64,000 nucleotides of DNA from Hyaloraphidium curvatum (GCA_025558095.1 JAIVFI010000002.1:372001-436000); one strand, 5' to 3'. Shown: positions 6,521 through 63,564, counted from the stretch's first letter. Program-made: numbers and translations. The notes: generated by a model not told the origin, from the letters alone.

Positions 6521-6552
6521 CGCCCAAGAAAGCAGCGCGACGGAGCCCGCCC

Positions 6553-16643: not shown

Positions 16644-16658
16644 CCCCCCCCCCCCCCC
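16644..16658 (+). repeat. C15 homopolymer
   Basis: A run of 15 C lies between the stop of the preceding gene and repeat copy C. Length is likely to be variable or uncertain in assembly. Confidence 0.9.
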
Positions 16659-16661
16659 TCC

Positions 16662-21195: not shown

Positions 21196-21296
21196 CGCGA
21201 CCGCGGTAGCACAACGCGTACAGAGTTTCCGCTGCTAAAAGCTAAGCTAAGAACTCCTCGCTGCTAAAGAGCCATTTATGGCCGTTTCGGCAAAGC

Positions 21297-22442
21297 TTGC
21301 CCACCCTACCCGCGCGCGCGCTCCACACCGGACAGCCCCGAATTGGAATCGCCCGTGCACCCCGAGCTCGAGAACAAATGCCGCCAATCCGGTGGAGAAG
21401 GTTCATATTTGTTGCTGCCTTCCACCTGGCGTGCTCTAATGGAGCAAACAGAGTCGTCCGCTCGACACGGTCTCCTGTCGGAACCACTCGCGCCCTGCCT
21501 GACGCTTTGCGGTGGAGGATCATTTGCAAATGGGCAGACGGCCAGCCAAAGGCGCAGATCGCACGGGAGCTTTTGGTTTCTCGTCGGAGCGTGGCCCGCG
21601 TCGTTACCTGCTTCACGACGTGGGGCTGCGTGACGAGCCCGCTCACCGGCCGCCGAGGACGCAAACGCCTTCTGAGCCCGGGCCAGGAGCAGCAAGTCGT
21701 AGACTTTGTCGTGGCAAACAACACTCTCTACCTGGATCAGATCGTCTCGCGCGTCTCGGATGCCTCTGGAGTACAGTTCTCCGTCAGTGCTCTTTGGGAA
21801 CTCCTCCACCGGAACGGAATCACCCGGAAGGTCGTCGAGACGGCGGCAAAGGAGCGCTGCGAAGCACAGCGCATTGATTTCCAGCTGAGGATATCAAAGT
21901 ACGACCCGCGAATGATCGTAGCCGTGGACGAATCAGGGTACAACGAGAACACGCTTATCCGCAAGTACGGCTGGGCTCCCATTGGGCTACGTGCGATTGC
22001 TTCCGTTCCGTTTGTGAGGGGCCAAAAGTACAGCATCCTGGCCGCTATGGACATGAAGGGCTACGTTGCTTGGCGTTTTCAAGAGGGGTCAATCAAAGGG
22101 GCTGACTTTTGCGACTTTCTCGAGAAGGACCTCCTCCCACGCATTCCAACGTTCAGTGTCATCCTTCTGGACAATGCAAGCATCCACAAGGATCCGCGCA
22201 TTCGTCCTCTCTGCGAGAGATTCGGAGTTTTCCTCGAGTTCCTGTCACCATACTCCCCGGACTTTGACCCCATTGAGCACTCCTTTTTTCACCTCAAGCA
22301 GCTCATGAGGAGGTACGAGGACTTTGTCAGGACGTTTCCAGACGCAAAGGACGCTATCAACTTCATGTGCACTCAGATTACTGAGGCCATGGCACGGGCT
22401 TGCTTCAAAGGGGCGGGATACCGCATTGACTTTGACTGCTAA
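21297..22442 (+). CDS. IS630/Tc1-mariner-type transposase
   Basis: DDE transposase, apparently intact, 381 residues from the first ATG; the domain itself begins about residue 65. An N-terminal helix-turn-helix (LRWRIICKWADGQPKAQIAR) precedes a second one (FSVSALWELLHRNGI). Catalytic Asp residues lie in MIVAVDESGYNE and VILLDNASIHKD, and the third carboxylate in SPDFDPIEHSFFHLK. I could not find convincing terminal inverted repeats in the flanks (21196-21296, 22443-22504). It is not closely similar to the transposases of the two large elements. It sits between RagC/D and the PHD gene. Confidence 0.88.
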   Translation: MPTLPARALHTGQPRIGIARAPRAREQMPPIRWRRFIFVAAFHLACSNGANRVVRSTRSPVGTTRALPDALRWRIICKWADGQPKAQIARELLVSRRSVARVVTCFTTWGCVTSPLTGRRGRKRLLSPGQEQQVVDFVVANNTLYLDQIVSRVSDASGVQFSVSALWELLHRNGITRKVVETAAKERCEAQRIDFQLRISKYDPRMIVAVDESGYNENTLIRKYGWAPIGLRAIASVPFVRGQKYSILAAMDMKGYVAWRFQEGSIKGADFCDFLEKDLLPRIPTFSVILLDNASIHKDPRIRPLCERFGVFLEFLSPYSPDFDPIEHSFFHLKQLMRRYEDFVRTFPDAKDAINFMCTQITEAMARACFKGAGYRIDFDC

Positions 22443-22504
22443 ACGAGTACAGGGCTACTAATGTAACGTTGCGATTACTTGCAAATAACAGATGTTAAAT
22501 TCGT

Positions 22505-24930
22505 TCACGAGTTGCTGTACAGATCGGACCCGACCATGACAACATCTTTGGTGCGCTTCCCAGGGAGGCAGTACAAAGCAATGTGCCCTTCAACGGCGGG
22601 AACGTCGATGAGCTTCTGCTGGGGAGAAAGCATCTCGAAGGGGAGGAGGTGAAAGGTCATGGTCTTTTCCCCTGCAGGGTCCTGCCACTCAGCCTTGTGG
22701 TGATCTTTGAACTGGGGACACTTCGTGACGATGCTCCAGACGGTCTCGTCCCCAAGTAGTCTCTCCTTGGGCCACAACGGAGCTGATGCGGCAATCTCGC
22801 CGTCATCGTTGCGCTTGCTCAGCGAAACGGAGTAGGTCGGCTTGAAGTTGCCCATGGGGCCGTCGGGCGTAAAGGCCATAGGCTCAGTCACGCCTGCAAT
22901 ATGGAGATGCATCCAGATGGGTGTGAAAGACGCTGTACGCACGGTCGCACCTGGCGAGGGGCCCGCGTTGGGGGCAGCGAGGGGGCTCATGAACGGGTTC
23001 CCGTCATTCTGTTCTCGGGGGGCACCACCAGTGCCCCAGTCCGGCTTGGACATGACAGGAACGGTCCTGGCAAGACCTTGCTTCCGAAGCGATGCCCGAA
23101 TGGCGTCGAGAGCCGTCGTTCCGCCCGGGGGGTTTTCGAAGTCGACGTAGTCGGGGTCGGTCGGGGTCAAGCCTTTCTTTTCCGTCTCTATCTGAATTCG
23201 GTGTAAGCGTACAAGACAACGCGGTAAAGTAACGATACATACGGCCATCCGTACCCAATGATGGGAGTCCTGAAGGTCGAACTGGCCGTGGCACATGCCG
23301 TGCATCAGGAAACAGCGTGGGCCGTGAACCCGGGTCATCAGGTCCCCGACGTGCGTGTGGCCCCTCGTCTTGCACACGGGAATGTAGAGCTTGTTGAGCT
23401 TAGACAAACGATCGGGCAGGCTGGATGTTGTGCCAGCTGTTCCAACTTCTCTCCCACCAGTGACCTGCTCGGGCCACGGAAGTCTCGTCGACATAGACAT
23501 AACCAGCAAAGACGCCGAATCCTACCACACCGGTCGACGTCCCCAAGGGGTTGGCAGTCTGTGTGGCAGCCTGGACGGCGGCGGGGTCGAACAGGGGCGG
23601 GGCACCGAGAGCGCCGGCCTGGGACAAGCCAAACGTGATGCCCTTGACCTCCACAATGTCGATTCCCGGAATGAGCTGACGCCGGCGCAGCAAGTTACGA
23701 AGCGCCTCGTCATCGGTAACGTGGCAGACATGCACGTCTTTGGGCTTTGTCGAGTTATGGTTGCCCGAGATGTAGGTGAGCAGAGGTGCCCCATCCGAGC
23801 GGTGCGGAACGAATACGCCGATGTGCCAATTGGGGCTATGGATCTGCTTGGCAGCTTGACCCAAGAACGCCGCGATGGTGATGCTGTCGATCGGCCCCAG
23901 ATCGAGCTGGACGGTGGACATCGTAGAGCCCATCATCTTGGTGCCAGTTACAGCCGCAAACTTGACTGGAACATCGCATGTGAGCGTAATGCAAGAAAAA
24001 GCGCGATTGCTGCGATTCCACACCCTCATAGACGGTAGCGAGCTCAGCCTTCTCCTTGGCCGTCAATGGCTTGGTCGGTTTCTCGTCTGCCTTCTTTCCT
24101 CCCTTCTTCCGCTTGGGCCCCCATTCGAAGTAGGCGGCCTCCACGACCACGGACGACTCGCTCGAAGGGGTGGGCGGCGGTTTGGGCAGAGCATGGGTGA
24201 TTCTGGACGGTGTGTCGTCGAGAGGTGCCGATGCCGGCTCGGATTCCTCGACAACCACGGCGGGCTTGGGTACAGTGCTCTGCGTCTGATGCTTCTTGCT
24301 CATGCGTGCTTTCTTCGGAGCCTGTTGGGAGCCATCTTCTGCGTGGTGGCTTGGGGATGGTAACGGTCGTGACGAATCACCATCCAGTGCCCACCTTTCC
24401 CTTGCTGGCAGCCCGAGCAAATCCAGCTCATGCTTTTGCCGGGCCTCTTGTTGATGCCGTTGCACCTTGTGTGCTGGTAAACCTTGCACTCGTCGCAATC
24501 GATCATGGGCTTGCCGTCGTCGAAGTCGTGCCCCTCGGCACCGCAGACGCACTTGAAATCCCAGCTCTCCGCGTCCGCGCTGTCGACGTCCTCATTGCTC
24601 GTAGTAGTGCCTTGTTTTCCTGAAGGGGAGGAGTGCTGTCAGTCCGGCTGCCAAACGGGAACCGACCTGCAGCTCGGACTGCCTCGTAGCACGTCTTGCA
24701 CACGGAGTGGTCGCCGGCCTGGAGCTTCTTCTGTCCCTTGATTCTCGTGCCGCAGACCTCGGCATTGTCACGGCTCAAGGTGATCCAGCGCAAGTAGTCG
24801 GAAGGGCGGCCGGCCTTCTGGAGCGTGGACTCGTGGGCGTCGCGCTGCCTGCAGTTCCTGTTGCAGACGACGCAATTGTCACATAGAGCGCATGAAATCT
24901 GAAACTTCTCCGGGTCCTGCGGAGGCGCCA
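22505..24930 (-). CDS. PHD-finger protein, multi-exon
   Basis: Probable chromatin reader. ATG 24930 starts MAPPQDPEKFQISCALCDNC, a Cys-rich region with CxxC pairs (CALCDNCVVCNRNC, later CKTC). After a short intron the PHD finger reads CVCGAEGH, CDECKVYQHTRCNG, WICSGC, a C4HC3 pattern. A basic, disordered linker follows (KKARMSKKHQ, KRKKGGKKADEK). The C-terminal 450 residues contain conserved-looking stretches (STVQLDLGPIDSITIAAFLG, THVGDLMTRVHGPRC, MHGMCHGQFDL, FKPTYSVSLSKRND) that I cannot assign; a PINIT/SP-RING SUMO-ligase architecture was considered but the cysteine spacing does not fit. Exon limits are partly unresolved. Confidence 0.65.
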
Positions 24931-25232
24931 TTGCCTTCTTCCGTGGGCTGGGGGGGGGGGCAGATTCGAGGACGTTTGGTGCCTGAGTTTTGCGCGCGCG
25001 CGGGTGGGCAAGCTTTGGAGAAAGGGCAATAAGGCTGAACAAGCCGTCAAGCGGCTAGCCCTGACAAACATTTCGCCTATGCACGATGCAGGAACAGCGA
25101 AATCAGTCTGCCGGGGTAAAGGTTTGTGGAGGCCACGATCAACGCAGAAGGGCGAAAGTGCCCGATCAGCGAAGTACGGGCAAAGAGGCGAGAGAATAAA
25201 TAAGAGGGAGAGGAGAGGAGGGATGGAGGCGT

Positions 25233-27264
25233 TCACGACTTGGAAGGAGCCGCACGACGCCGGCGGGCCGCGGTGTCCCCGCTGCCTTCCGAGCCTCGAG
25301 CGCGACCCCCAGAGCGTCCGCCGGGCATGTAGTCCCCATCTCCGTCATCATCAGGAGCACCCCGAGCCTGCCCACGAGCACGACGAGGAGCGGCGGCATC
25401 CTGGGCGGGTTCGACGGCCGTCGGGCTCGCGATCTCCTGGGATTCGGCAGCCCGCAGTCCGCGGGAAGACGGGTGCGCACGGGCTCCCGACCCCGGCTTG
25501 AAGCCGAGCGGCCGCGCGCCGTCGAACAGGAGCTGGTGCCAGAACAGGTAGAGCATGTTCCGCGCGCTGTTGATGTCCCGGTTCCAGCGCACGTGGCAGG
25601 TCCGGCACTCCTTGACGCGCCACGTCTTGCCCACGAGCTGGCCCGATTTGCACCGGTTGCACTTCTGGCTGCTGCCGTGCTCGTGGATCGAGACGCCGAC
25701 GACGACCTTCATGAACTCGCGACGGTAGGTGATGAGGGGCGCGGAGGCGTGGCCTTGGCTGTTGTGGGGGAAGACAGCAGCGCCCACAGCGGCCAGAAGC
25801 GTGCCGATCCGGCAGGTCAGGGGATCCTTGGCACCTTGCCGCACCATCCAGAAGAGCACCTGGCGGGAGCGGAAGTAGCGCGCGAGTCGGCGCCGCCTGG
25901 GCATCAACGAAGAGTGAGCGAGGTCAAGGTGGTCTGCAAGCCGCGAGACTTGCCTCAGTTCCTCCTGACCGTAGAAGGTCGTGACCTCCCGAAGATCCGC
26001 GAGAACGTAGTCGGCGTACTCGGCGTAGCCCTTGTACGTCAGAGACCGCGAAGTCGGGATCCTGGACTGCCACTCGGCGATCGAGATCCCCGTCCGCGCG
26101 AGCGTCGTCTCCTTGAGCATCCGCTGCAGCTTTGCCTCGTCGCGGACGAAGCCAGACTTGTGGCGGTACAGCGAGGTCGAAGCACGGCGCTCGATCTCCC
26201 AGCTTCCGCGGGTGCCGAAGCCCGTAATCCCCCAGATGCGGTCCCGCGCGGCGTCGGTGCCCACGCCGAAGAACTCCTTGAGGTGGCGACGGTGCTTCTT
26301 CTCCTCCGATTTGGAGCGTTTGCGGTACGTGGGAGGAGGGGAGCGCGCGGCGGGGTGGCTGCGGCGAACGGGATCATCGAACTGCGAGTACGGGCGGAGC
26401 TGGTGGAGCGGGTTGTTGCACACCGGCGGGCGACCCTCCCGGGCGGCCTTGGCGGTCTCGTCGCAGTAGTGCTGCCGGCGCAGCTCCTTGATCCGGCCAG
26501 TGGAGAGGAGGGTCTTGGGCTGCTCCCTGATGATGATGTACCGCGTGATTTTGCCGTCGGGGTGCCGCACGACGATCGCGCTGTCGAGATCGGACAGGCG
26601 CCGGTTGGCGTTGGCGTACCCGTTGCGCGGGTCGAGCAGCTTCAGCCCAAGCTTCTTGCCGATGGTGAGGTCACCGGCGAGGAACTCTTTCCTGTTCGGG
26701 TCGAAACCGGCCGGCGTGCAGTTGAGCCTCCCCGCGTTGTAGCCGATCCGCTCCTTGATCTCCTCGCGCCCCTGCGGAGTGTCCAGCGCGTAGCGCGTGG
26801 CCGCATCGCCGAGCCGATGCTTCTTTGGCTTCGCGGGCTGTCCTGCGCTTGGGACGCGGGCACCCCTCGAAGGCGGCTGCGCCGGCTGCCCTGCACCCGG
26901 TATACGAGCACCCCTCGAAGGCTGCCCGGCGCCTGCGCTGCCCGCCTGCTTGCCGCCGCCCGCCTGCTTGCCGCCGTTGTCCGACTGCCCGCTTCCAGAG
27001 CCGCTCCGATTCGTCTCGCCCCGCTTGCGCACGATAACGATCTCGTACGTAGTCGTGAGGAGGTGCAGGCTGGCGCCGTCGTAGCTGAAGTGCCGAGGGA
27101 TCGACTTGGTCGTGGCCGTCTCGTGGAAGGTGAGCGCCGAGACGCCCTTGCGCGAGTCCTTGCTCCCCGTCTTGCGCCGCTTGCCGGTCCGGAAGATCTC
27201 GTTGAGCCAATACCCCGGGTCCTGCTTCATGACCGCGACCTCGGGCAAGGCGTGCGCACCCGCC
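25233..27264 (-). CDS. Fanzor (TnpB-like RNA-guided nuclease) module of element 1
   Basis: C-terminal exons of the composite gene, about 658 residues after splicing. Family role: RNA-guided DNA endonuclease related to TnpB and Cas12. RuvC-I is AGFDPNRKEF. The stretch AAVGAAVFPHNSQGHASAP corresponds to the RuvC-II strand but lacks an acidic residue there; the Glu in IHEHGSSQKC is placed as in the rearranged Fanzor active site. The zinc ribbon is CNRCKSG and CRTC. RuvC-III is VRWNRDINSARNMLY, with the Asp and Asn intact. A Gly/Gln/Pro linker with imperfect RGARIPGAGQP repeats lies at about 26850-26990. The opposite-strand 663-codon ORF is a shadow. Confidence 0.88.
25897..25953 (-). other. Probable GC-AG intron in the Fanzor module
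   Basis: Minus-strand gcaagt donor and tgcccag acceptor define 57 nt. Removal joins EELR to RRRRLARYF, exactly the product of splicing the 57 nt GT-AG intron at the same site in element 2 (55007-55063). Being a multiple of three without stops, it leaves an open frame if retained. Confidence 0.75.
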
Positions 27265-27312
27265 CTGGAATCTGTCAGGATCGAGCTATGCACAGAGAAA
27301 CAATGAACTCAC

Positions 27313-30300
27313 TTGACCAAAGCCTCGTGAATGGCGGTCATGGAGAAGGGCATCATCCGAGGACGGAAGCGGATCTCCGTCAGCAAGGTACCGGGAGACT
27401 TGGATGCGATCCAGGCGGGTGCCGCCGGTCCAGCCTTGGCCGCGTCCTTGCGCGAAGCTTTTGAAGCGGCCGTCGCCTCGACAGCAGCGGCGTGAACGCT
27501 GGCGATGCCTTCCCGGAGTTCGCGCTCGCGCTCAAAGAAAGGATCGTCCTCGGCCGCATCTTCGTCTTCCGCGACGCGGTCTTTGGAAAGGTGCTTCTCG
27601 AGCTGCACCGGCTCGCCGCTGCGTGTACCGTGCAGAGCCGCCGTGCGCATCCGGACGGAGCGCTCTCTCTCGAAAAAGTCATCGTCCGCGCCGTCGTCAG
27701 CTTCCTCCACGACCAGGGGCTCCGAGAACGGCGAAGCGGAAAACTTGGTGTACCCGTGATCGGGCCCCCGGTGCGGCACAGGTACCGCGGCCCGCTTCTC
27801 CGCCCGCCTCTGCTCGCCCGGCCGCGGCACGGCTTTGCCGTGCTCCCAGTACACCCTCTTCAGCTTGAAAAGGCGGTCGATCCGCTGCGCCTCCGTCTCG
27901 GGCTTGCGGCGCCGCTGCGAGGCGAGCTGGTGGGCATCCGTACCCGCCTGCGGAGCATCGACCGGCGCGCCGACGTCCATAGCGTCTCCGGCAGCCAGCG
28001 TTCCACCGACATTGGACGGACCGCCAGCACCGGATGACAGTCCTTCCCGCGCGCGGAAGAGCTCGGGGTGGTTCTCCCGATTCCTTGCCTCGATCCGGCC
28101 GCGTTGCACCTTGAGCTTCAGCTTCACCGCGTAGAAGGGATGAACGCTGGCTGACCAGTCCTTTTCCTCCAGCCCCGCAATGCCGAGCACCTTGGGGTCC
28201 GTCTCGCCGGCCTCGCGCCTGCGGATGAGCTCCCGCACCTCCCCTTCGGTCGACCGGCGCAGATGAGGCGGCACGTAGAGCTGGCCCTCGCGCGCGTTGT
28301 GTGCGCGCATGGCGTCGTTCGTGGGGAAGAAATAGGGCAGGTAGACGAAGGGGAGGTGGTGCTGGAAGCAATAGTCCATCGAAGCACGGATCTTGTAGTT
28401 GGCTTTGGTGATGGCCAGCGCCACGGCCTTCAGCTCCGGGTCGCCAAAGGTCCCCTTGAAGCGCCCCTCCGTATACTCCTGGAAGTGCTCATAGCTCTCC
28501 TTCTGGTCGTCAGTCCACACCCTTTCCTGCGTGATCCGCGGCGGGAACGAATGTTTGATCGGCGGCAGCCCCTTGGCCTCGCGCTCCAGATGGCCCCAGA
28601 CCACGTACGTCGGCGGGGGCTTGGGGATGCCTTTGCCAGAGGTCTTGCCGTTCGCACCGGAAAGCTGCGACCCCTGGACGTGCTCGGGATAGCAGCCGCG
28701 AAGCTCCTGGACGCAGTAAGCACCGAGCAGCGAAGCGTCGATGCTCATCTCGTAGGCGCGGTCTTTGCGAGGCTGCAGGAGGATCGACTCGCGCACCGCG
28801 GGGTCGACCTGCGCAAAGACCGCGCGGCGGAGGCAGTGTACGGCGGGATTCTGCGATTCGGCGTCCCTGACCCAGAAACGGGCCTCTGAGTGAACACGAC
28901 GAAAGCTCTTGTCGTCCGAGAGATAGTGCCCAAGGCCACCAGGGCGCTTCCAGAGCGGGAGAAGGAGGTCGTAATGCCGGTACCCGCACAGCAAGAGGCA
29001 CAGCACGGGATCACCCTCGCGCTTCTCGGCAGCGCCTTCGACCGCGATCTCCCGAGCGACCTCGAAGTGCAGACCGTGCTCGCCGTTTACCACGCAGATC
29101 CTGACGCGCAGCTCCTTGACCAGGGACTGCAGCGCGAAGTGATCGCCCCAGTAGAGGGCCTGGTCCGTCCCTTCGACCGCGGGTGCGTCCAGCCGCATAC
29201 GCTCCGCCAGCTGCGCGACGATGCGCTCCGGAACCAACTCCGGCGCCTCGAACTGCTCCAACCCGAGGCCCGCGGCCCAGCGAACCTCGTGCATGGGGTC
29301 GATCGTCTCGTCCAGCCTCGCGAAGAGCTCTTGCCGACGTTGCGGGCTCGTTGCCTCGTCCTCGAGCTCCCGACGCTCTTCTGCGGTGAGCTCAGGCGGC
29401 CCAAGATGCCCTTGCCGAAGTCCGTCGAGCAGGCACTGCACGAAAAAGTGCGCGGGAGTTCCAGGCTGCCGCGCTTCGCCCATCACCTCGTCCGCCACCA
29501 CGGAGCGCAGCTCGCGAACGGGACGACGGGCCCCCGAAATGCGGCAACCTTCCGACACCGATTCGAACAGGCAGTCCCCCTTGTCCGGCATGGTCTTGAT
29601 TTTCGCGAGCACCGCACCAACCACAAGGTTGCTCGCCCCGCGCGAATCGATAAGCTCCTGAATCTTGTCGATCTGCCGCACGAGCTCTCGGGCGCGAACC
29701 TTCAAAGTCTCGGCGGTGTGCATGTCGTAGGCGCTCAGCTGGCCCCGCATCACGACCAGGGAATGCACCTTCCCGCGCACAATGTCCTGGTCGATGGGCG
29801 ACAGAGGGTGCCGGCACGCGAGCTTGAGCAGCGCCGGAAGCTCTTCCTTCTCAAAGGCCTGGATTTGGAGGGCACAGTCGGAAAGGCTGGCCGCCGCGTG
29901 AACGTCGATGTTGAAGTGCCGAAGCGCCGAGAGCTCCTTGGCAGTCAGCTCGGGCCGGCAAAGGTCTGCGATCGGCTCGCCGCCGTGGGCAAAGTCCACG
30001 ATCTTGTCCGCCACCTTGGACGCCTTCTTCGAGGGCAGCGCAACGTCCTCGAGCTTGTAGGCGCGCTTGACGAACGCCTTCTCGTGCGAAACGAAGTTGA
30101 CGGCGATCTTGGTCTTGAAGTTCGCCTTGGCCATGGAAACCATGTCCATCACGGCGGTCTCGACGATGCCTTTGTAGGTGAGCTTGAGCCGCGGTAGGTG
30201 CGGGACGAGGATGCGCTTGGCGGCAGCCAACATGACCACGACGAGAAGCTTGTTCTTCCTCTTCCTCTCCGCGACCTCCTCTGCGGTCTCCTTCCGCTTC

Positions 30301-31350
30301 CCCGCATCCTTGGTGGCTGCCTCACCCTGCTGCGCGGGCGCGGGCGCTGCGGCGGAGCCCTCAGCGCCCTCGGGGTCGATCGTGATCTCGGCGGCCGCGG
30401 CGTCGACCTCCATTCCCTCGCGCGACTCCTCGTCCAGCGAATCGAGCATTGTCACGTCCTTGTCGCCGCCCGAGTCCTGCGGCAGCTGCATGGACATCAG
30501 CGCGTCCTCGAACGGCTCGTCCACGTCGATGGCGTCGGCGCTTTCGTCCGGCCCGCTCCCCCCGGCTGCATCATCGCAGCCTTCCTCCCCATCCCCAGCA
30601 TCCCCAGCATCCGCCCGCGCCGACTCGCGCAAATGCCCGGCCTGCTCGTACAGCTCCTCGTCGAGGCGGTCGACGTCGACCTCGGCCTCCCGGGCAAGCA
30701 GTTCCGCGGCGCACTTTCCGATCTCCTCGATCTGACGCCGGAGCTCGTCGAGGTCGGGGGGCTTCGGCACCTTGACGGATGGCGCGTTCCTCGCGTGGGC
30801 ATTGCCAAGGTTGGGCGAGACCCTGGAGCCCGTGGCCAACGACTTGACCACCGAGTAGGCGATGGCCCACAGGTTCTCAAAGTCTGCGTCGCGCAGGTCC
30901 TTGTGGAACGGCCCTATGTCGTAGTGCTTCTCGCCGTCCGGATCCATGATGAGGTGCATGGTGCAGTTGACGAGCAGAAGGACGACGATGACGATTGGGG
31001 TCCCCTCCAGCGCAGTCTTCTCGAGCACCTCGATGGTCTGCTTGGCAAGGTCGCCGTAGCTCTCGAACTGCCTCCCGTCCAGCACCACGGTCCTCTGCAT
31101 GGCCTCGCGCAACACAGCAGCCACGTCCTCTCGCCCGCGCAGGGTCTCGGTCGATCGCGCGTACCAGTTCAGCGCGCTGGTGGGACAAGAGCAGGGCCTG
31201 TCGACGAGGCTGGCGGCGCATATCGGGCAGGTTTCGAGGCGAAAAGGGGCAGCAGCGCCGGTCGCGGTTCCGCCGTCCGGCAGTCGGCGCCGGATAGCCT
31301 CCCGCATGATCTCGTAGGCCTTGTCCAGCGCGTCCTTGGGCATGAGGTCG
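27313..31350 (-). CDS. OTU-domain region of the element 1 polyprotein
   Basis: Middle exon, about 1,346 codons. It opens with MPKDALDKAYEIMRE and a Cys motif (CPICAASLVDRPCSC), then an acidic Asp/Glu/Ala-rich stretch (30,250-30,650) and helical regions. The OTU-like cysteine protease domain begins at MPDKGDCLFESVSEGC (catalytic Asp and Cys codons at 29571-29576), continues through LYWGDHFALQSLVKELRVRICVV and ends at CGYRHYDLLLPLW (His codon at 28974-28976). OTU proteases usually cleave ubiquitin or ubiquitin-like chains. Downstream lies a conserved block shared with element 2 (ITKANYKIRASMDYC, HLPFVYLPYFFP, ETDPKVLGIAGLEE). The exon ends TAIHEALVK at the intron joining the Fanzor. Fully open, which suggests recent activity or constraint. 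Confidence 0.82.
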
Positions 31351-31405
31351 CTGTGAACGAAAGGCATCAGGACGAGGTCCGCGCGAGACGAGGAAAAAAC
31401 CTTAC

Positions 31406-33158
31406 TCGATCCGCATGTGCGCATGCTCCGCGGTTACGTGGGTGACGTAGTTGAGCGGCGAGTCGAGCACCTGCTCGCACCCCGGGCAGCCAAAGTGGCG
31501 GCGCTTGTAGTGTCCCGCCAACCACTTCTCCGCCTCCTCCTTCGACTTGAACCCCCTCGCAACCTCGTGCGTCGGGCTGTCGCCGCAGCAGAAGCAGCGC
31601 ATGTTGGCCCAGGGCTCCAGCATGGCGACTGTCCCGCGCGTGACCCCGACCCAGCGCTCCAGGTAGCGATCGAGCGCGGTCCGCTGCTGGCTTCCCGCTT
31701 GTCCCAGGTCGTCGTACCCGAGCAGAGCAAGCATCACGGTGAGCTCTTGCGCGCCCTGGTACACCGCCTTGGACGCCAGCTCGTGCAGCTGCACGGGGAT
31801 GGGCCTGTCGCCGGTGATCGCGATCCCGGCCGCAGCGAAGGCCTCCTCGATGGTTTGCGCCTGCGGAGCGCGTTGCATCAAGGCGATGCACCGGGATCCC
31901 AGCTACGAGCCAGACCCACCGGCACGAATGCGCTACGTGCCCGGAAGTCGAGGCCCGCTGCGCGCGCCACCGAGCCGCCGACATCGACAAACTCCTTCCA
32001 AAACGGCACTATCTCCGCGTGTACAGCGGGTCTCCACTCGACCTTTCCGGACCCCTGCGCCTCAACCGGCACGCGAACGTTGACGTAGAGGGTCAGGAGC
32101 GAGAGGTCGTTCTCGGAGAGCCGCCGCACTAGCTCCCCGGTTACTCGCAGTCGTATGTCGATTCCGATCTTGGCGAGACCATTGCGGATGCTCAGCGCCA
32201 GATTCTTGTCCTTGGCCACGGGGTGCTTCATGCCTCCCAGGATCGTCTCGACGAGCAAGATACCCCGGTTCGGTGCTGCGCCCTCGGGCTCCTCGTCCTC
32301 GCGCTTCAGGGCCAACTTGAACCGCGCCAGCGTGTTGTGCATATTCTCCATCATGCTGTCCCTTTCCGCGATGCTTGCGGTCACCTTCCGAGAAAGGAGC
32401 AGCTCCTCCACCTGCTTGAAGAACGCGCGGGACACATCCGACGAAGCGTTGACGAGCTCAGGGACGAGGTGAAGATCAAAGTAGTAGTCCTTGATGTTCA
32501 GGAGCGGTAAGGCCGGCAAATGCTTGTCGGCGGCCGCGAAGAGCACCTTCAGAACCCCTTGCTCGTTCCTGCCACCGCTTATGATGCGCGCCAGCGCTTT
32601 CGCGCTCGAATGATCCCTGCTGTCCGCGATGAGGTCGTCGACGGTATAGGGAAGGTGGTCGTCCTTCTCGCCGAACACTGCAGAACGGGGCACGTCGGGA
32701 GCAGGATCCGTGCACGCGCCAGTCGCGACGGCAGCCCGTGCCCCGGCGGCTCGAAGCAAATGCTCTGCGACCTTCGGGTGAATGGCTTCCAGGAAGTCCG
32801 CGAGTCTCCCATTGTGGGCAAGCTGGCCGACGATGCAGAGGTGGAAGTTGACGAACTCGTCGGGCAGCTCTCCGTTCCACTTCTTGCGCTGGGCGTCCGA
32901 GTACTTCTTGCGCTGGGCGTCCGAGTACCTTCCAATGACGTCGCCGACGGGCGAAAACGGCTGCGCGAGAGTCAGCGCGTGTCCCAGGAAGTCCGATTTG
33001 AAAGCAGGCGGAGCCGTCTGCCCCAAGGCGATAACGTGCTTGTTCAACGTCGAGTTGAACTTCTTCCCGAGTCGGCACCCCGAGGACACTTCGACAAACT
33101 CCTTCAGGGTCCAGGGGCGCGCGAAAGCGCTTTCTTCGATCCCCAAGAGCGACGCAGC
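31406..33158 (-). CDS. N-terminal cargo exons of element 1 polyprotein
   Basis: Two exons split by intron 31861-31919. The upstream exon begins AASLLGIEESAFARPW after the phase-0 intron 33159-33237 that links it to the transposase frame. It contains an exact 8-residue tandem duplication (YSDAQRKK twice, near 32880-32930). The downstream exon (AQTIEEAFAAAGIAITG to the Cys/His stretch CFCCGDSPTHEV ... HFGCPGCEQVL ... VTHVTAEHAH) resembles a zinc-binding domain with CxxC pairs and spaced His. Element 2 has the corresponding Cys region (CFFCGETPTLRV ... CQTCYADE). I do not recognise either part as a named family. Confidence 0.7.
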
Positions 33159-33237
33159 CTGTGATGAGGACGCGAGAGGGATGAAAGAGTCAGAATTCGG
33201 CAGGGTGATAGGAAACGAGGGAGGCGTCTGAACTCAC

Positions 33238-34558
33238 GGAGCGTTCAATCTCCTCATGTGAAAACGAGCTCAATGAAGGCAGATCCTTTTCCGCAGTAAC
33301 GTTTGACGGCGCAGCCTGCGCTCGACGGGCGGGGACCGGTGCTGCAGCGCCCGGCGCGTTCAGAGAAAAGGCATCCCCGGGATGCGTGGCGCCCCTGCCC
33401 ACCGTGGCCGCCGTTGTCGCGTTGCACATTGCTCGGACAGGGTCCTGCGTGATGCTGAGTGCCGTCTTCGCACATTCTGACGCGTTTGGGCGCGCCCGTT
33501 CGACGGCCTCGTTTTCTCTGTGAGGAGCGATCGTGCCACGAATCCGTGCGGCCTCTTCTTCGCTCAACCTCACACAGTGCCGAAAAGTCGGCGCCAAATC
33601 CATCGCCGCAATTTCGCCAATCGCCCTTTCTATCGATCTGACCAGCTCCTGGACCGTGGACGGACAGTCCTTGCGGACCCTGCTCTTGATCATCCAGAAC
33701 ACGTGCTCAGCCGGGTCAAACTCGGGCGATCGCGGCCTCAAATAGACAATATCCAGGCCGTTCCTGCGAGCTATCTCCTGGACTGCTTGGTAGGCTTTGC
33801 CAGTTCCTTTTCGACGCAAGATCGGGACCCGTCGGGCCTCCGGACGGTCCTCCAGGGGGAGCCGTGGAAGCCCGCGTTGTCGGCGATGACCTTGACGGGA
33901 CCAGTGCTATCACCCGCCTTGATGGACTCGAGGAAGGCGCAGAATCGTTCGGTGGTCATGTTGCCCTCGTAGATCACATAGGACACTATGTTGCCGCCAA
34001 AGTTGCCCTCCCTCGGCGCCATGGAGATGCACAGGCAGAGGAACAGCTTCTTCCCGCGGCCGGAAGGCAATTCGATGACAGCACGCTCTCCCTCGGGAGC
34101 ATAGCCGTAGGGAAGGGGCTCGTTGATGTGGAACGACGACTCGTCGAGGGCGAGCAGGTTGCCCGACGCGGCTGCAGCCTGAATGGCCTCGTTGAAGTCG
34201 AGATGGCGCTGCGGCTGCTCCAGTCGCTCCACGTTCCTGATAGTTAGCCGCTTCCGAGTAATCTTTCGCGCCCGAAGCAGCCGCGAGACGTGCTGCTGAC
34301 AGATGGAGACGCCGAACTCCTCCTTCACCGCCTTCGCCAGCTCCTTCTGCGTGATGACAACCTTGCCCGTCGCCATCTTGACGATGAAATCGACGACTTC
34401 AACTGTCGCTTTCCGGGGTCGCACCGAGGATCGTAGCCGTCCCGAAGGTAGTTGCGAACCATTCTCGGCGAGACGTCAACAACGCCGCCGATTTCCGCGA
34501 CGCTCATCTGAGTACGCTGCCGCAAGCGCTGAGCAACAAGGCGCTTCTCAATGTGCAT
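33238..34558 (-). pseudogene. IS630/Tc1-like DDE transposase of element 1, frameshifted
   Basis: ATG 34558 begins with a helix-turn-helix (LVAQRLRQRTQMSVAEIGGVV). The DDE core keeps LLALDESSFHIN, VKVIADNAGFHG and FDPAEHVFWMIKSRVRK (Glu codon at 33706-33708). Compared with element 2, 16 nt are missing near 34435 and 1 nt near 33813, so three frames are needed. The final frame runs on past the transposase end (RLSEEEAARI) through about 100 disordered residues to a splice donor that joins the cargo exon. Probably not functional as it stands. Confidence 0.8.
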
Positions 34559-36938: not shown

Positions 36939-37652
36939 CTACCAAACCGAGCTGTTGCTCGCCGCAAGGAGCTTCGTCAGCGATTCAAAACGGATCGATT
37001 CCGTCACCACCGCAGCTTTGATGTCGTTGTCGCTCGTCAGAGGGGGGCATGCAACGTCCCGGTCCGACTCGTCCATGCTCCATCCCAGGCCGGCAACGTA
37101 GTCGCGCGCGCCCTCATCGTCCAGCTCCAGCCACTCCCCGACGAGCTTGATGCTGACCGACTGGTAGGCAGCGGCGAGGGTGCGGGCAATGAAGTCGCGT
37201 ACCCTGTCGTCAAAGTTGCTGCAAATGTCCACGATCCTCCTCGCCTCCTCGTTCTCCTTCAGAAACGCCCAGAACTCCTTGAAAGACGCCGTTTCGAGCA
37301 TCTGCTGCATCTTGGTCAGGATAACCAGCGCAGTTTGGGCGCAGACTTCGTCCGTGAGGAGGCAGCAGCAGAGGCCGAAGTCCGGATCCGGGAGCGCCGT
37401 GAGCGCCTTGACGAGCGCGGCGGCCGCAACATCTGGATTCAGGAGATCCGGGTTGAACTGGTACAGCTTGAGCAGGGCCAGATTCGCGTCGCGGTCGTAC
37501 GTGTCGTTCCTCAGCTGCGAATCGAGGTACCCTTCCAACGCCGGTATCTTTTCCGGATTGTAGCGCTCCACCGAATCGATAATGTCACGAATCTCATCGG
37601 GGCGGCTCTGCTCGGCCGCCTGAAGGTAGTCGCTGAGCTCAATCCCGGGCAT
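36939..37652 (-). CDS. Translation initiation factor 3 subunit K (eIF3k)
   Basis: Peripheral subunit of the eIF3 complex. The single-exon, 237-residue product matches the family along its length: VERYNPEKIPALEGYLDSQL, YDRDANLALLKLYQFNPDLL, VKALTALPDPDFGLCCCLL, FKEFWAFLKENEEARRIV, FDDRVRDFIARTLAAAYQ and the C-terminal GWSMDESDRDV. These are the HEAT-like and winged-helix segments. Length is close to the human protein (218). The small N-terminal extension is helical. Confidence 0.93.
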   Translation of the reverse strand: MPGIELSDYLQAAEQSRPDEIRDIIDSVERYNPEKIPALEGYLDSQLRNDTYDRDANLALLKLYQFNPDLLNPDVAAAALVKALTALPDPDFGLCCCLLTDEVCAQTALVILTKMQQMLETASFKEFWAFLKENEEARRIVDICSNFDDRVRDFIARTLAAAYQSVSIKLVGEWLELDDEGARDYVAGLGWSMDESDRDVACPPLTSDNDIKAAVVTESIRFESLTKLLAASNSSVW

Positions 37653-54384: not shown

Positions 54385-57300
54385 TCACCGGCGGCTCGAA
54401 GGCCGGCCTCGGCTTCCCGCAGAACCACCAGGCCGGAAATCGTCGTCGTCCTCGCCGGTGTCAACAACGCGCACATTCCTCCGCGCGGCAGCGGCCCTCT
54501 TGCGAGGCCCGCCGCCCTCGGAGGCATCCGCAGCGCGCTTGGCACCCGCTGCCTTGGCCTTGCCACCCTTCGGAGGCGCCTTGGCACCGCTGGCGGGCTT
54601 GTAGCCCAGCGGCCGGGCACCGTCAAAGAGCAGCTGGTACCAGAACAGGTAAAGGATGTTGCGGGCGCTGTTGACGTCGCGGTTCCAGCGCTTGCGGCAC
54701 AGCCTGCACTCCTTGACACCCCACTTGCGGCCGTGGAGACGCCTGGAATGGCAGTCGGAGCAGTTGGCGCTGGACCCGTGCTCGTTGGTGAGGACGCCAT
54801 CGACGAGCCTGAAGACTTCGCGTCGGAAGGTGATGATGGGCGCCGAAGCATGCCCCTGGCTGTTGTGCGCGAAGACAGCTGCCCCGTACGCCAGGACCAT
54901 CTTGCCGCGCTCCTTCCCCGGTTCCTTCAGCGGATCTTTCGCGGTTTCGCGAGCCATCCACATGAGGATCTGGCGGGAGCGGAAGTAGCGCGCGAGACGG
55001 CGGCGCCTGGAAAACGGCAAGGTGTCAACGATGTTGGCTAAAGGTACCGCTCCAACGACCTACCGGAGGATCTCCTGCGCGTAGAACTGCGTGACCTCGC
55101 GGAGGCGCTTCACCACGTACTTGACGTAGGCAGCGTAGTCAAGCAGCCTCATCGACCGCGAGGTCGGAATTCCAGACTGCCACTCTGCGATGGACTGGGC
55201 CGGCTTCCCGTCCAAGGGCTTGAGCATTGTCGTCTTGAGCATCGACTGCAGCTTCTCCTCGTCCTTGACAAAGCCGGCTTTGCGGCGGTAGAGCGACGTC
55301 GAGACCCGGCGCTCGAGCTCCCAGTGCTGGATCCGGCCGAATCCCGTCTTGCCCCAGACCTGGTCCCGCTTCTCGTCCGTGGGCACGCCGTAGAACTCCA
55401 TCAAGTGGCGAGTGTGCTTCTTGGACGCCACTCGTCCCCTGAACCGGTCCCTCGGCACGGGCTCAAACTCGCGGTAGACGTCGTGCAGGGGGTTGCTGCA
55501 GCACACGACGCCGCCCGCTCGGCTGGCCCTTGCCGTCTGGTTGCACGAGTGCTCGAAGCGGACGCCGTAGATTCGGCCGGTGGAGAGCAGCCCGCCCCGG
55601 TCCTGGCGCCGGAGGAAGACGCAGCGGGTCTGGGTGCCGTCGGCGTGCTTCACAACGAGGCAGGAATCGAAGGCGGACAGGCGCTCGTTGGCGAACGCGT
55701 ACCCGCCCGACGAGTCCAGGAGCCGACGACCGAACAAGGCCACCAGCTTGATGATGCCGACGTAGAACTCGCGACGGTTCGGATCAGCGGCCATGACGGT
55801 GCGCAGTAGCTGGGGATCTCCGTCATAGACGACCCGTACGAGCTCCTTCCGAGACTGCGCATCATTGAGATCGTACTTCCTGGACAGCTCGCTCGCCCAG
55901 CTCTTGCGCGGCGCCTGCTGCGAGATGTTGAAGGCCGCATTCGCCGCGAGCTGCGCCGCACGCTCGGCCGTCCCGCTCGCCCGAGACGCAGCCGCCTGCT
56001 GCGACGCCGCCTGCCCCGACCGCTGCCGACCTGCCGCACCGGTGGCCGCCCTGCCTTTGCCGCTGGGCGGCCCCGTTCCCGAGCTCGGCCGCGGCTCCGA
56101 CCCCAGCCTCTTGCGCGGCATCTGCTTCCCCGTCCACGTCTGCGTTGTCACGTGAAGGGATACCCCGTCGCTCCGCACGATGCACCAGATGGTCTTTTCG
56201 TTGAGCGTCTCGTTGAACTTGAGAGCGGAGACGCCATCCAGCGCGCCCTTGCTGTCCCGAGAAGCCTTGCGGTTGCGCGACCGCTTGCCCGTGCGGAAGG
56301 CTTCCTGAAACCAGAAGGCCCTGTCGCGATTCATCACCGAGACTGGCGGCAGGCACCGCATCCCGGCCTTCTCGAGAACAGCACGCCAGGCGGTCATGTC
56401 GTAGGAAAACATCCGGGGAGCGAAGCCGACCGACAGCGCGAACGAGCCCGCAGGCCTCGACCTGATCCAAGCCGGCCCTTTGTCCGCACCGTTCTTGGCC
56501 GTGCTTTCAGTCTGCTTGACGCTGCCGCCGTTGATCGCCTCGTTGACCGTGACATGGCCCCTCGGCGTCTCGGCGTTGCGCTCCGTGGCCGTCTCCGCGG
56601 GGATTCCGGCCGCCTGCGCCTTGAGATGAGCTTCACGCGTCCGATCTCGCAGCTCCGCTTCGCGGTCGAAGAAGGTCACGTCGCCTTCGGCGTCCACGTC
56701 CTCCACGACCGTAGGCGCGGACAAGGATGCCGATGCGAACCCGCGCTTGGTGTACCCGTGATCGTGCTGCGTCTCGCTTCGGATCTTGTCTTTCTTGCCC
56801 TCCAGCTTCGCCGCACGCCTCGCCTCGCCCTCGCGCATGATCAGCTTGTTGTGCTGCCACCGAAAGCGCTTGTCCTGGATTGCCTGGTCCCGCTTCTGCT
56901 CGTCGGTCAAGTGCCTCCGGCGCTGCCTCCCGGTCCGTCCGCAGCACGAGTCCTCCGCATCCGAGTCGACCTCCGCGAACTCCGCGCGTGGCAGCGGCGC
57001 CTGCGGTCCGTCCACGTCCATCGCGTCGCCGTCCCCCGACCTGTCGCCCTCGCGCGACACGGCATGCCCGGCGGTGCCCCCCTGCGGCTTCGGCTTCATC
57101 CGGGGGAACTTGTCCGGGTGGTTGCGCTTGTTCAACGCCGTGCTCTCCTCCCTCACCGTCGCGTTCATGCGCTTGAGGTTGTAGTAGGCTCGGATCGCCG
57201 CGTACCACGGACGCTTCTCCAGTCCTTCGATGCCCAAGACCTTGGGGTCGGTCACGCCCGCGAGCCTTTCGGCGATGAGCTGCCGTAGCTCCGCCTCAGT

Positions 57301-57720
57301 CTTGTGCCGGAGGTGGGCCGGGGCGCGGATCTGGCCGGCGAGCGAGTTGTGCTTCTCCATGTCCGCACCGATGGGCACCAGGTAGGGGAGGATCTCGAAA
57401 GGCATATGGTGGCGATTGCAAAAGTCCATGCACCCGTATGCCTCGAAGTTGGCCTTGGTGATCGCGATGGCCTTGAGCTTGAGCGGGTCGCTGGCGTGGA
57501 GGCGCTCGAAGTCCTCCTTGCCATGCTTCTTGAACCACTCGAACTTGGACCTGTCCTCGGGCGACCAGTTCCTTTCCTGCGACAGCTTCGGCGGGAAGTA
57601 GTTGTGGAACGCCGGCAGACCCTGCTGGATTCGCAGAAGGTGTGTCCAGACGACCCAAGCAGGCCGGGGCTTGGGGACACGGCGCGCGGAGAAGGGGCTG
57701 CGCGAGTCGGCGATCTGGTC
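54385..57720 (-). CDS. Fanzor module of element 2
   Basis: Continuous from about 57715 except for the 57 nt intron 55007-55063. Upstream it carries the conserved cargo block (ITKANFEAYGCMDFCNRHHM, VTDPKVLGIEGLEKRPW), then FRTGKRSRNRKASRDSKGALD, which starts the Fanzor part. RuvC-I is MAADPNRREFYVG; AYGAAVFAHNSQGHASAP marks the RuvC-II strand; NEHGSSANC holds the relocated Glu; the zinc ribbon is CSDCHSRR and CRLCRKR; RuvC-III is WNRDVNSARNILY. A Lys/Ala/Gly-rich tail follows. Catalytic residues are intact even though upstream regions of the same element are broken. Unlike element 1, the linker between the OTU region and the Fanzor has no intron. Confidence 0.82.
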
Positions 57721-60360
57721 CGCGGATCTCGGGTCCGTAGGCATCCCGAATCCGTTCTCCGCAATAGGCAAGCGCGAGGAGGACGTCCGTGCTCGCCTCG
57801 TAAGCACGCTCCTTGCGATTCTGGTGCAAAATCGCGTCCCTGACGCTCGGAGCAATGTCGGCAAAGATGGAGCGGCGGAGGCACGGAATTGGAGCTCGGT
57901 TGCCGCCCCGCAGCCAGTACCTTCCCTCCTGCAACGCGTGCTCGAAGGATGCGACGTCCGACACGAACAGCCCGAGGCCCTCGGCGCGCTTCCACCCCGG
58001 CTTCAGCATGCCGTAGCGGCCTTCCGGCTCGGCAAGCAAGCAAACAACCATCCTCTTGCCCCGCTCCTTTTCCGGCGTCGCATCCCTGCCGGCCTTGTCC
58101 ACGATGACCTCGAAAAGGTTAGTATCCGACCTGACGATGCAGAAATCCATCGACAGCGACCCGGCGAGGATGCGGAGCGCCCCATCGTCTGCGGCAAAGA
58201 GCGCGGCGTCCGTCTTGCCGTCAAATTCCGGGTCATCCGTGCGAGACCGTCGCATCCTCGAAGCGAGCCTCTGCACCACACTGTCGGGCACCTCCGTGGC
58301 TGATGCAAAAGTCTCGAGGTTCAGGTTTGCCGCCCACTGCACGATCTCGTCCGCCGTCGATCCGCTGGCCTTGATCTTGCCGATGAGCTTCTCCAGATAC
58401 TCGTGCGCAGCCGTGCCCTTGCTGCGGCAGCCGCGCTCGAACTCATCAGCGAGGCCCGCGCGCACCTTCTTGGCCGTGAACGGCCCTCTCGGATGGCCGG
58501 CGCCGGAAAGAGCGAGAGCGATGCCTCCAAACACGTGGTTGGGACCGTCGGGCAGTTCGTGCAAGGCGGCCATGACGGCGCCCGGAGGAAGCGCTGCAGG
58601 CGGGGGGTCGATGATCGAGCTGCGCAGTTCATCCACCTCGTTCCACAGTTCCGTCGCTTCCGCCTTTTCCGGCGGATCTACCTCACTGCGCTCCTCCTTG
58701 AACACGAACAGGATGTCAAGAACCCTTTGGAGGCGGCGCACGTGGATGTCGACGATCTCGTTTTCGGCCCGGGTCCGCGCCGGCAGCGCCACGAGCTTCC
58801 GCAGCGCGGGAAGCTGCCGAGTCCGGAAGTCATCGACGAACACGCGCGCGGTGGGGACGTTGGTGACGAGGGAGTCGACATCCAGGTCCGAGTCGATGCG
58901 GAGGGACCTGTAGTCGACCTCGCCGAGGTCGGATCGCCCAAAGTTTTCCAGGGGATCCTTGCCGTTGAAGAACTCGATGGCGTACTTGACGAGCTTGCCG
59001 CCCTTCTTCGTCGGAAGCTTGACGGCGTGGAGCGCGAGCACTTGACGGATGTAGCGCTCGACCTGCTTCATGAATGTTCCGGAGATCTTGGTGGCAAAGT
59101 TGGTCCGCATCTGCTCCACAGCCCCCAACAGAGCTTCCTCGATAACCTTGTCGAACTGGAGCATGGCATCCTTCAGCCCCTCCTCGGGAATCTCGGCGTC
59201 AAAGACGGCGATTATGAGCTTCAAAAGGAGTTTGCGGAGCCGCTCGCGCTCCTTTGCCTCCTCCTCCGACTCCTTGGGACGAGGAGCACCGGCATCGGCA
59301 TCCCCCGACGCAGCCGCCTCTGCAGTCGTGGGGTTCTCGGCCGCGGGGACTTCGCCCTCCTGCACCGCGCCAACGTTGACCTCCTCGGCGTCGAGCAAGT
59401 GGTCCGCGTCGACGGCCTCCCCAGCATCAGCGCCTCCATCCGCCGCCGGATCCGCCGTCATCATATCAAACGTCTCGGCGAGGAGGTCGGCGTCCGATGC
59501 GGCGTCGTGACCTCCATTTCATCCCCGCTTTCGGAACCGTCGTCCGCGTCCGCCCCGGTGCTCGGCTCGATCTCGAGGCGGCCCGCGTCGTCGAAGAGCC
59601 CGGCCACGGTCGCCGGATCGTCCATCTCCGCCCCTGCCATTTCCACGTCCCCAGCCTCTTCTCCGTCCGAGGCGGGCTCCGCACCAGCTTCCGCCGAATG
59701 TCCGAGCGTTCCGTCGAGTCCGAGCTCCTGGCACTTCTGCGTCATATCTGGCTGCTTCGGGATGTTGCGCAGCACGGGGGCGTTGCGCGGGCGCGCGGAA
59801 CCAAGGTTTGGCGAAGGATCCTTGCCCGTCGCCCTAGCCTTGATCACGGAGTACGAAAACCTGAACAAGCAGTCCATGTCGGCCATTGCAAGGTCCTTGT
59901 GGATCCCGGGCACCTCGTACTTCTCCTCCCCGACGGGGTCCTGGATCGCGTGCAGCGTGAGCGCAGAGAGCAGGGCAGTCATGATGACAATCGGCGTGCC
60001 CTCCACGATGGTTTCCTCCAGGACCTTGAGAATGTCGTCCGCCATCTTGCTGTGCGCCTTGAACTCGCCCACGTCCAGCACGATGGTCATCATCTTCACC
60101 ATCTGGACCGCAATCTCGATCTCCTCCTCGCCCTTATTCCGCTGCCGTGCACTTTCGATCAGACGATGCGCAAAGATAAGCAGCTCCGGATGACAGGTGC
60201 ACGCCTTCTTGGCCGCCGTCGGCTTGAAGTGGCACAGCGGGCACTCCTGCCCCTTCTGCACCGGCGGCACGGGCGGTCCCAGATCGCGCCCGACCTCGAG
60301 CAGCCGCCTGCGGAGCTCCTCTCGGATGAGGAAGAAAGCAGTCGTCGAGAGGTTCTGCGG
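57720..60360 (-). pseudogene. OTU-like and acidic region of element 2, catalytically degenerate
   Basis: Two frames (60360-59512 and 59512-57720) align with element 1. The first starts LLMPQNLSTTAFFLIREELRRR, has a Cys motif CPLCHFKPTAAKKACTC and EGTPIVIMTALLSALTLHAI (compare EGTPIVIVVLLLVNCTMHLI in element 1). The second has NEIVDIHVRRLQRVLDIL, then LPDGPNHVFGGIALAL where element 1 has the catalytic GDCLFES. The Asp and Cys are replaced by Asn and His (58535-58540), and the C-terminal His block reads AEPEGRYGMLKPGW. Frameshifts near 59512 and 57715 look like single-base losses in G/C runs. Confidence 0.75.
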
Positions 60361-62535: not shown

Positions 62536-62539
62536 CGAA

Positions 62540-63564
62540 TCCGATCAGCCTCTTCCTCGCTCAACCTCACGCAGTGCCGAAACGTCGGCCCCAAATCCAT
62601 CGCCGCAATTTCGGCAATCGCCCTTTCTATCGATCTGACCAGCTCCTGGACCGTGGACGGGCAGTCCTTGCGGACCCTGCTCTTGATAATCCAGAACACG
62701 TGTCCAGCAGGGTCAAACTCGGGCGATCGCGGCCTCAAATAGACAATATCCAGGCCGTTCCTGCGAGCTACTTCCTGGACTGCTTGGTAGGCCTTGCCAG
62801 TTTTCTTTTCGACGCAAGATCGGGACCCGTCGGGCCTCCGGACGGTCTGCCAGGGGGAGCCGTGGAAGCCCGCGTTGTCGGCGATGACCTTGACGGGACC
62901 AGTGCTATCGCCCGCCTTGACGGAAGGCGCAGAATCGCTCGGTGGTCATGTTGCCCTCGTAGATCACATAGGATACTATGTTGCCGCCAAAGTTGCCCTC
63001 CCTCGGCGTCATGGAGACGCACAGGCAGAGGAACAGTTTCTTCCCGCGACCGGAAGGCAGCTCGATGACCGCACGCTCTCCCTCGGAAGCATAGCCGTAG
63101 GAAAGGGGCTCGTTGATGTGGAACGACGACTCGTCGAGGGCGAGCAGGTTGCCCGACGCGGCTGCAGCCTGAATGGCCTCGTTGAAGTCGAGATGGCGCT
63201 GCGGCTGCTCCAGTCGCTCCACGTTCCTGATAGTTAGCCGCTTCCGAGTAATCTTTCGCGCCCGAAGCAGCCGCGAGACGTGCTGCTGACAGATGGAGAC
63301 GCCGAACTCCTCCTTCACAGCCCTTGCCAGCTCCTTCTGCGTCACGACGACCCTGCTCGTCGCCATCTTGACGATGAAGTCGACGACTCCAGCTGTCACT
63401 TTACGGGGTTGTGCCGAGCGTTCCCCCGACCGAGGAGCGTAGCCGTCCCGAAGGTAGTTGCGGACCATTCTCGGCGAGACCTCAACGACGGCGCCAATTT
63501 CGGCGACGCTCATCTGAGTGCGCTGCCGCAAGCGCTGGGCAACGAGGTGCTTTGCGATTGACAT
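62540..63564 (-). pseudogene. IS630/Tc1-like DDE transposase of element 2, inactivated
   Basis: ATG 63564 (MSIAKHLVAQ) starts the same helix-turn-helix as element 1. It is open to about 62915, where an 8 nt deletion relative to element 1 replaces FLESIKAGDS with a frameshift. The core keeps LLALDESSFHIN and the second Asp region, but the third catalytic residue is changed: FDPAGHVFWIIK, with Gly (codon at 62703-62705) in place of Glu. The C-terminal half reads on into the cargo frame. Confidence 0.8.

Follow-up and report, generated by a model that had tools for sequence, protein, structure and literature searches.

The locus at the centre of this analysis raises the question of whether a DDE transposase, an OTU-like domain, and a Fanzor-type nuclease are encoded in one polypeptide, and whether such a polypeptide belongs to a mobile element. 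The window that was analysed is a 64-kb stretch of DNA within a 31.9-Mb genome of 55 contigs. The 96 Zn2Cys6 domain matches in this genome, along with the lack of any chlorophyll-binding protein, point to a fungus or something closely related. Two related copies, A and B, are found in the window, while two further families, C and D, occur elsewhere in the genome; positions there are given as contig:position (such as C7:376233), and these contig labels are distinct from the name of family C.

Organization of Copy A

Copy A extends from 34558 to 25233 on the minus strand. ORFs and Pfam matches give the order transposase, linker, Cys/His exon, OTU-like domain, and Fanzor-type nuclease, which agrees with the parts and order proposed in the first-pass annotation. 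Exon 1 (33238..34558) contains the DDE_3-type transposase (DDE_3, 3.4e-9; HTH_33) and linker sequence, and is 92% identical to copy B at the DNA level, with indels. Exon 2 (31920..33158) is an open frame that forms a linker region without known domain and is 28% identical to B over 228 aa. Exon 3 (31406..31860) is a Cys/His (zinc-finger-like) exon bounded by introns J1 (phase 0) and J2 (phase 2), and families C and D carry the same exon with the same flanking phases and the same Cys/His pattern. The long exon 4 (27313..31350), a 1,374-codon ORF, is 27–40% identical to B along its length and comprises a CxxC start, acidic and helical regions, the OTU-like domain (28950..29585), and part of the Fanzor N-terminal region. 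Exon 5 (25954..27264) carries RuvC1 of the Fanzor (DPNR near 26702) and part of REC, with 55% identity to B and 30–34% to C/D. Exon 6 (25233..25896) includes the alternative Glu of RuvC2 (25682), the C4 zinc finger, the RuvC3 Asp (25577), the C-terminal tail, and the stop codon, and the zinc ribbon sits in a 691-codon ORF. All of these exons are on the minus strand. Beyond the transposase exon, the exons add up to 7,707 nt, i.e., exactly the 2,569 codons including stop that had been counted before.

Families C and D

Searches of the genome with the Fanzor and the transposase revealed two multi-copy families of near-identical copies, C (n = 10) and D (n = 5). Family C transposases were located at C7:376233, C7:476824, C6:418475, C6:610989, C3:625256, C5:12663, C15:552871, C28:412419, C11:285212, and C35:360340, and those of family D at C4:417298, C5:544289, C16:401495, C25:336548, and C36:99183. 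In each of the 15 copies, the transposase is followed, approximately 6–7 kb downstream and on the same strand, by a Fanzor. With regard to other genomes, in which the same order had been suggested as worth looking for, no relatives were detected in viral contigs (Fanzor, OTU, and transposase alignments) or in bacterial and archaeal genomes (transposase alignment).

The C copies are 99.7–100% identical to the reference copy in the parts that were read, and their flanks differ completely. The elements are 8,629 bp (C) and 8,663 bp (D) in length. The ends of family C are T[CA]GTTTCACACACAG and GAGAGTGTAGCTA. In 9 of the 10 copies (by script), the two flanking bases match on either side, which rules out a simple TA duplication; the 2-bp target-site duplications are variable (TG, CC, AC, AT, GC, CG, and AG). 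Family D ends in AGTCGCACACATCG and GTGTGTAGCCA(G), and 2-bp duplications can be recognized by eye in 5/5 copies if two of them carry an extra G. A single copy per family was read over its full length. In family C, this yields a single spliced ORF of 2,688 codons from the transposase start to the Fanzor stop with five GT-AG introns, and in family D a single spliced ORF of 2,647 codons with seven introns; one of these, 40 nt long, and an AAG acceptor are weak choices. Comparison of C with D points to purifying selection on both enzymes (transposase, dN 0.29 and dS 1.5; Fanzor core, dN 0.43 and dS 1.3).

Families C and D are recently mobile transposons containing both enzymes. Because their copies have defined ends, duplications, spliced ORFs, and shared introns and phases, the transposase–Fanzor fusion is very probably real and recently mobile. 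For the family, there is strong support for the earlier proposal that one transcript encodes a giant fusion; in copy A itself, the transposase is frameshifted. The main reading is that A is a member of a DNA transposon family of ~8.6 kb that encodes one giant transposase–middle–Fanzor polypeptide and acts by the mechanism proposed below, and we assign it a probability of roughly 0.7.

By hhalign, A/B and C/D are related in the transposase (E = 1e-66), the Fanzor (5e-31), and, weakly, the Cys/His exon (0.027). The linker and the other middle parts were unalignable by sequence between A/B and C/D in this comparison; thus, shared ancestry of the middle is argued from the intron positions and the Cys/His pattern.

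Several individual copies show additional features. In the C28, C11, and C35 copies, the first 15–20 nt of the left end are kept, a deletion lies directly inside, and the target-site duplication is intact, a pattern which suggests internal deletions before or during transposition. The C35 copy is probably not autonomous, since its start region is lost and its Fanzor part contains a stop. Isolated Fanzor fragments (C15:378582, C13:344096, C3:874428, C12:33714, and C23:297272) and further transposase relatives of 42–50% (C5:421938, C23:314477, C15:359278, and C13:321599) were also observed, which may belong to additional families of this kind or to decayed ones.

Transposase and Fanzor-Type Nuclease

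By profile, the transposase is related to the IS630/Tc1/mariner DDE_3 group: DDE_3 is matched at 2.3e-14 in C in addition to the match in A, and HTH matches occur in both. No integrase family was found among the transposase hits, which gives no sign of a Ginger1-type Gypsy integrase. The catalytic residues are arranged as D-(87 to 89)-D-(56 to 57)-E, the second gap being 56 in C/D and 57 (with one X) in A. In Tc1/mariner transposases, the second Asp and the third acidic residue are separated by approximately 34–41 residues. Owing to this spacing and to the variable 2-bp duplications, which are not TA, the transposase was not filed under Tc1/mariner.

It was reported by Yoon et al. that Fanzors are marked by a Glu six residues before the zinc finger and by a DPG motif, which was described as nearly, not absolutely, exclusive to Fanzors (PMC10711439). 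All four elements match E-x6-CxxC-x-CxxC-x(4-8)-D, with RD present, and only A and B match E-x6-CxxC-x-CxxC-x-D in the six frames of the window. Against the pattern of Bao and Jurka, D-X(125,275)-[TS][TS]XX-C4-X-RD, the [TS][TS], C4, and RD elements are present, and the D-to-Glu spacing of 321–335 is longer than the pattern allows. The Cas12f1-like_TNB zinc ribbon is found in copy A at 1.3e-7, over its cut-off, and in a PDB search, a profile of the four sequences matched GtFz1 (Guillardia Fanzor1; E = 0.0018) and the TnpB-like LaTranC (5.8e-4), with the matches confined to the zinc finger and RuvC3. The AlphaFold2 model of the Fanzor core had a pLDDT of 36, and Foldseek was uninformative. The Fanzor assignment rests on the repositioned Glu, the C4 zinc finger, and the RD motifs. 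Since the RuvC1 motif of A, B, C, and D is DPN in place of DPG, the protein is described here as a putative divergent Fanzor-type nuclease.

OTU-Like Domain

The call of the OTU-like domain is much weaker than those of DDE_3 and the Fanzor. PF02338 matches copy A with E = 0.03 on the whole ORF and 5.6e-4 on the trimmed domain (20.9 bits versus a cut-off of 23.3 bits), and the domain is named "OTU-like" because this score falls under the curated Pfam cut-off. Among the three profile similarities for which the first-pass annotation had suggested a search, DDE_3 and the Fanzor zinc ribbon were recovered, and the OTU match was found below threshold. PF02338 is, nevertheless, the only Pfam family matched by the region, and the blocks KGDCLF (Cys at 29573-29571), WGDHFALQSLVKELRVRICVV, and GYRHYDLLLP occur in the right order, with the motifs KGDCLF, WGDHFALQSL, and GYRHY retaining both the Cys and the His. 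Hhalign to host OTUs gave E = 0.002 for copy A, compared with 0.61 for a control segment and 0.29 for copy B.

The stretch is probably a true OTU-derived domain, and it is rather unlikely that it is a lineage-specific segment with a chance motif. The latter would fit the sub-threshold score, the absence of a Pfam match in the OTU region of copy B, and the AlphaFold2 pLDDT of 43 with no Foldseek fold match. It would also fit the residue three before the Cys, which is Lys and not the usual Asp; however, two host OTUs of the same genome also read xGDCLF. No OTU-like domain was detected in C or D by profile and hhalign comparison.

The triple with OTU that had been proposed is borne out as an order of parts in A and B, and only there, B being a pseudogene in which the OTU Cys and His are lost. 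A broader reading, in which one polypeptide would combine transposase, deubiquitinase, and RNA-guided nuclease, would physically couple movement, protection against the ubiquitin system of the host, and RNA-guided re-copying, and would owe its OTU to a gain followed by loss in one branch, is tentative and holds a minor share of our confidence.

Introns and the Possibility of Separate Products

The short introns with good splice signals and matching phases that had been noted in copy A are confirmed as five predicted introns, all on the minus strand. J0 (33237-33159) reads GTGAGT..TCACAG, with the branch A at 48. J1 (31919-31861; phase 0) and J2 (31405-31351; phase 2) are common to A, B, C, and D, each of which has the branch-site A of J1 at a distance of 42 nt from the donor. 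J3 (27312-27265) reads GTGAGT..TTCCAG, with the branch A at 38, and is absent from B. J4 (25953-25897; phase 2) is a GC-AG intron that can be read through in frame in copy A; its positional counterpart in B, C, and D is GT-AG. J1, J2, and J4 recur with these phases in A, C, and D; in B, they do so to the extent that its frames can be followed. Over the four related elements, a branch-site-like motif with an A 35–50 nt from the donor is present in 17 of the 20 predicted introns; under a strict criterion, 13/20 introns had a branch site versus 4/122 control GT sites.

J1 also bears on a different account of the locus, in which internal promoters, re-initiation, or intron retention give rise to two or more proteins and translation of the complete spliced frame is rare or does not occur. 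Were J1 retained, the first product would end at a TGA that is in frame at codon 14 after the J1 donor in A, B (J1 at 60970-60911), C, and D (an 808-codon first ORF in C). An ATG directly follows J1 in C, the TGA overlaps an ATG in A, and known Mariner elements with Fanzor1 encode separate proteins (PMC3627910). On the other hand, D has no ATG after J1, and the phases of J1, J2, and J4 are conserved. The TGA overlaps the predicted branch-site motif, which lies at its usual distance, and this accounts for where the TGA stands; the possibility that J1 holds a regulated stop was weighed, but the TGA coincides with the branch site. In addition, copy B runs without intron or stop from its transposase to the linker and, again, from its OTU exon to the Fanzor, and these intron-free joins independently support the transposase–Fanzor fusion. 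Separate proteins are, on balance, an unlikely outcome, and a regulated transposase-only product from J1-retained mRNA is possible. A single spliced polypeptide is the reading preferred here.

Frame Breaks and the Fate of Copy A

The first-pass annotation had described a single-frame chain running through the transposase of copy A, and this did not hold. Relative to copy B, the transposase exon has two frame breaks, caused by deletions of 17 nt (near 34415) and 1 nt (near 33803). Every candidate intron that would restore the frame was listed, and none had a branch site at the usual distance. Since these frameshifts have no plausible intron, copy A is not one open chain: its frame is uninterrupted downstream of the transposase domain but not within it. 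The DNA-integrase half of copy A is probably dead, as its transposase is frameshifted.

Such a pattern might be expected if copy A had been adopted by the host, i.e., if the transposase died and the 2,569-codon OTU–Fanzor part was kept as a gene with a host function. Both frame breaks fall within the transposase, which is about 1/8 of the coding length, and the rest is open with intact introns; copy A also retains the Cys and His of the OTU and the D-E-D residues of the Fanzor. However, two events are too few for statistics, the sole comparison is the pseudogene B with synonymous sites near saturation, and the loss of the transposase may be recent. Host adoption is considered unlikely. As a member of the transposase–Fanzor element family, copy A is an old, apparently immobile relic.

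A comparison of the termini of A and B with the ends of C and D gave no significant match. The idea that another element splits the right end of copy A was tried and was not significant. As a separate observation, the stretch 21246-25036 beside the 3′ end of copy A looks like a different DNA transposon with passenger genes: imperfect inverted repeats of ~31 nt (87%; arms 21276-21306 and 25002-25032) bracket a DDE transposase ORF (21246-22439, plus strand), which is ~30% identical to that of copy A, plus minus-strand ORFs.

Copy B and the Divergence between A and B

Copy B (63563-54385, minus strand) has the same order of parts and is more degraded than A, with several frame breaks, and its protein was compared with the others piece by piece. 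Its transposase (62536..63563), which is 92% identical to A in DNA over 62536-63552, has an 8-nt deletion and a Gly in place of the catalytic Glu. The OTU region (57719..58648; 37% identity to A) has lost the motif Cys and His, and identity to A varies from 27 to 40% by stretch across the OTU-exon region. The Fanzor part (54385..56370; 49% identity to A) contains J4 at 55063-55007 and the alternative Glu at 54783. All of these parts are on the minus strand. Copy B is, from these lesions, a pseudogene.

At synonymous sites, A and B diverge by 0.15 in the transposase and by ~0.6 to >2 in the body. Since the transposases are 92% identical in DNA and the bodies share 25–65% of residues, the two regions appear to have different histories, for which recent gene conversion or recombination of the transposases would be the simplest reason. 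A similar pattern, with conserved transposases and exchanged 3′ parts, was described by Bao and Jurka (PMC3627910). Although such different histories might also be expected of unrelated elements brought together by nesting or chance, this is extremely improbable, given the 17 elements of four lineages in which order and strand are unchanged and the spacing is near-constant within defined ends, the conversion or recombination that explains the A/B mismatch, and the ends and duplications that already refute it for C and D.

Right End and Proposed Mechanism

Just inside the right end, C and D have a common non-coding segment of 37 nt that is 92% identical; it has been kept, yet synonymous sites between C and D are near saturation (dS above 1.3). 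The 19-nt core of this segment has exactly 15 occurrences genome-wide, only in C or D. A guide RNA of the Fanzor would be expected to map to this position. The fold of the segment was no better than those of shuffles, and a search for the right-end motif in A or B gave no significant match.

Under the main reading, the giant polypeptide would consist of an N-terminal DDE_3-type transposase, a fast-evolving middle with the Cys/His exon, and a C-terminal Fanzor-type nuclease. The transposase half would bind the element ends and move the element, and the Fanzor half would use a guide RNA made from the right end to cut the empty donor site, with the result that the element might be copied back by homologous repair. 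The fusion would deliver both activities together. In the A/B branch, the likeliest role of the OTU-like domain, speculative and by analogy with Ginger1, for whose OTU-bearing transposases such a role was proposed (PMC2836005), might be to deubiquitinate the fusion protein or repair factors.

If the transposase and the Fanzor are one protein, the benefit of Fanzors to eukaryotic transposons becomes directly testable with recently mobile, end-defined elements: excision and RNA-guided cutting of the empty site could be assayed in the same protein, and either half could be removed. The OTU branch, if true, would be another case of a ubiquitin-protease-like domain joined to a DNA transposase, and would be relevant to the ways in which transposons cope with protein turnover and repair in the host.

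Relation to Known Systems

In the Fanzor papers considered here, transposases have been described as separate proteins or as absent (PMC10432273, PMC3627910). Similar to the present elements, Mariner elements with Fanzor1 are DNA transposons with a DDE transposase and a Fanzor, and combine a conserved transposase with strongly differing 3′ parts; however, their proteins are separate and their duplication is TA (PMC3627910), whereas the present elements have one spliced frame, a variable 2-bp duplication, and a catalytic spacing of 56. Spu-1/SpuFz1 and GtFz1 (Saito et al. 2023, PMC10432273) share the Fanzor nuclease type, with the profile match to GtFz1 covering the zinc finger and RuvC3. Unlike the present elements, no transposase was found within the Spu-1 ends or at the GtFz1 locus, and these have neither a fusion nor an OTU (PMC10432273). 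Ginger1 DNA transposons also carry an OTU (or Ulp1) domain in the transposase polypeptide, but the transposase is of the Gypsy-integrase type, the OTU is C-terminal, and there is no Fanzor, in contrast to A/B (PMC2836005). The IS200/605 and IS607 elements with TnpB likewise pair a transposase with an RNA-guided nuclease, for which cut-and-copy retention has been proposed; however, they are prokaryotic, encode two separate proteins with different transposases, and their TnpB usually does not have the repositioned Glu (see also PMC10711439). No description of Fanzor, OTU, and transposase together was found in the literature searched, and a published fusion may exist.

Other Observations

Short dispersed repeats in the window (3844-3988, 6546-6665, and 16651-16813) are 79–88% identical. 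An ORF at 36939-37685 (minus strand), close to an RNase P RNA gene, is presumably eIF3k-like. The gene in question, for nuclear RNase P RNA, is located at 37787-38037 on the plus strand (Rfam RF00009, 84.7 bits). Elsewhere in the genome, several predicted ORFs on contigs C35, C26, C16, C4, C8, and C40 have two Zn2Cys6 domains side by side, and contig C40 carries three evenly spaced Zn2Cys6 matches, ~5.2 kb apart.
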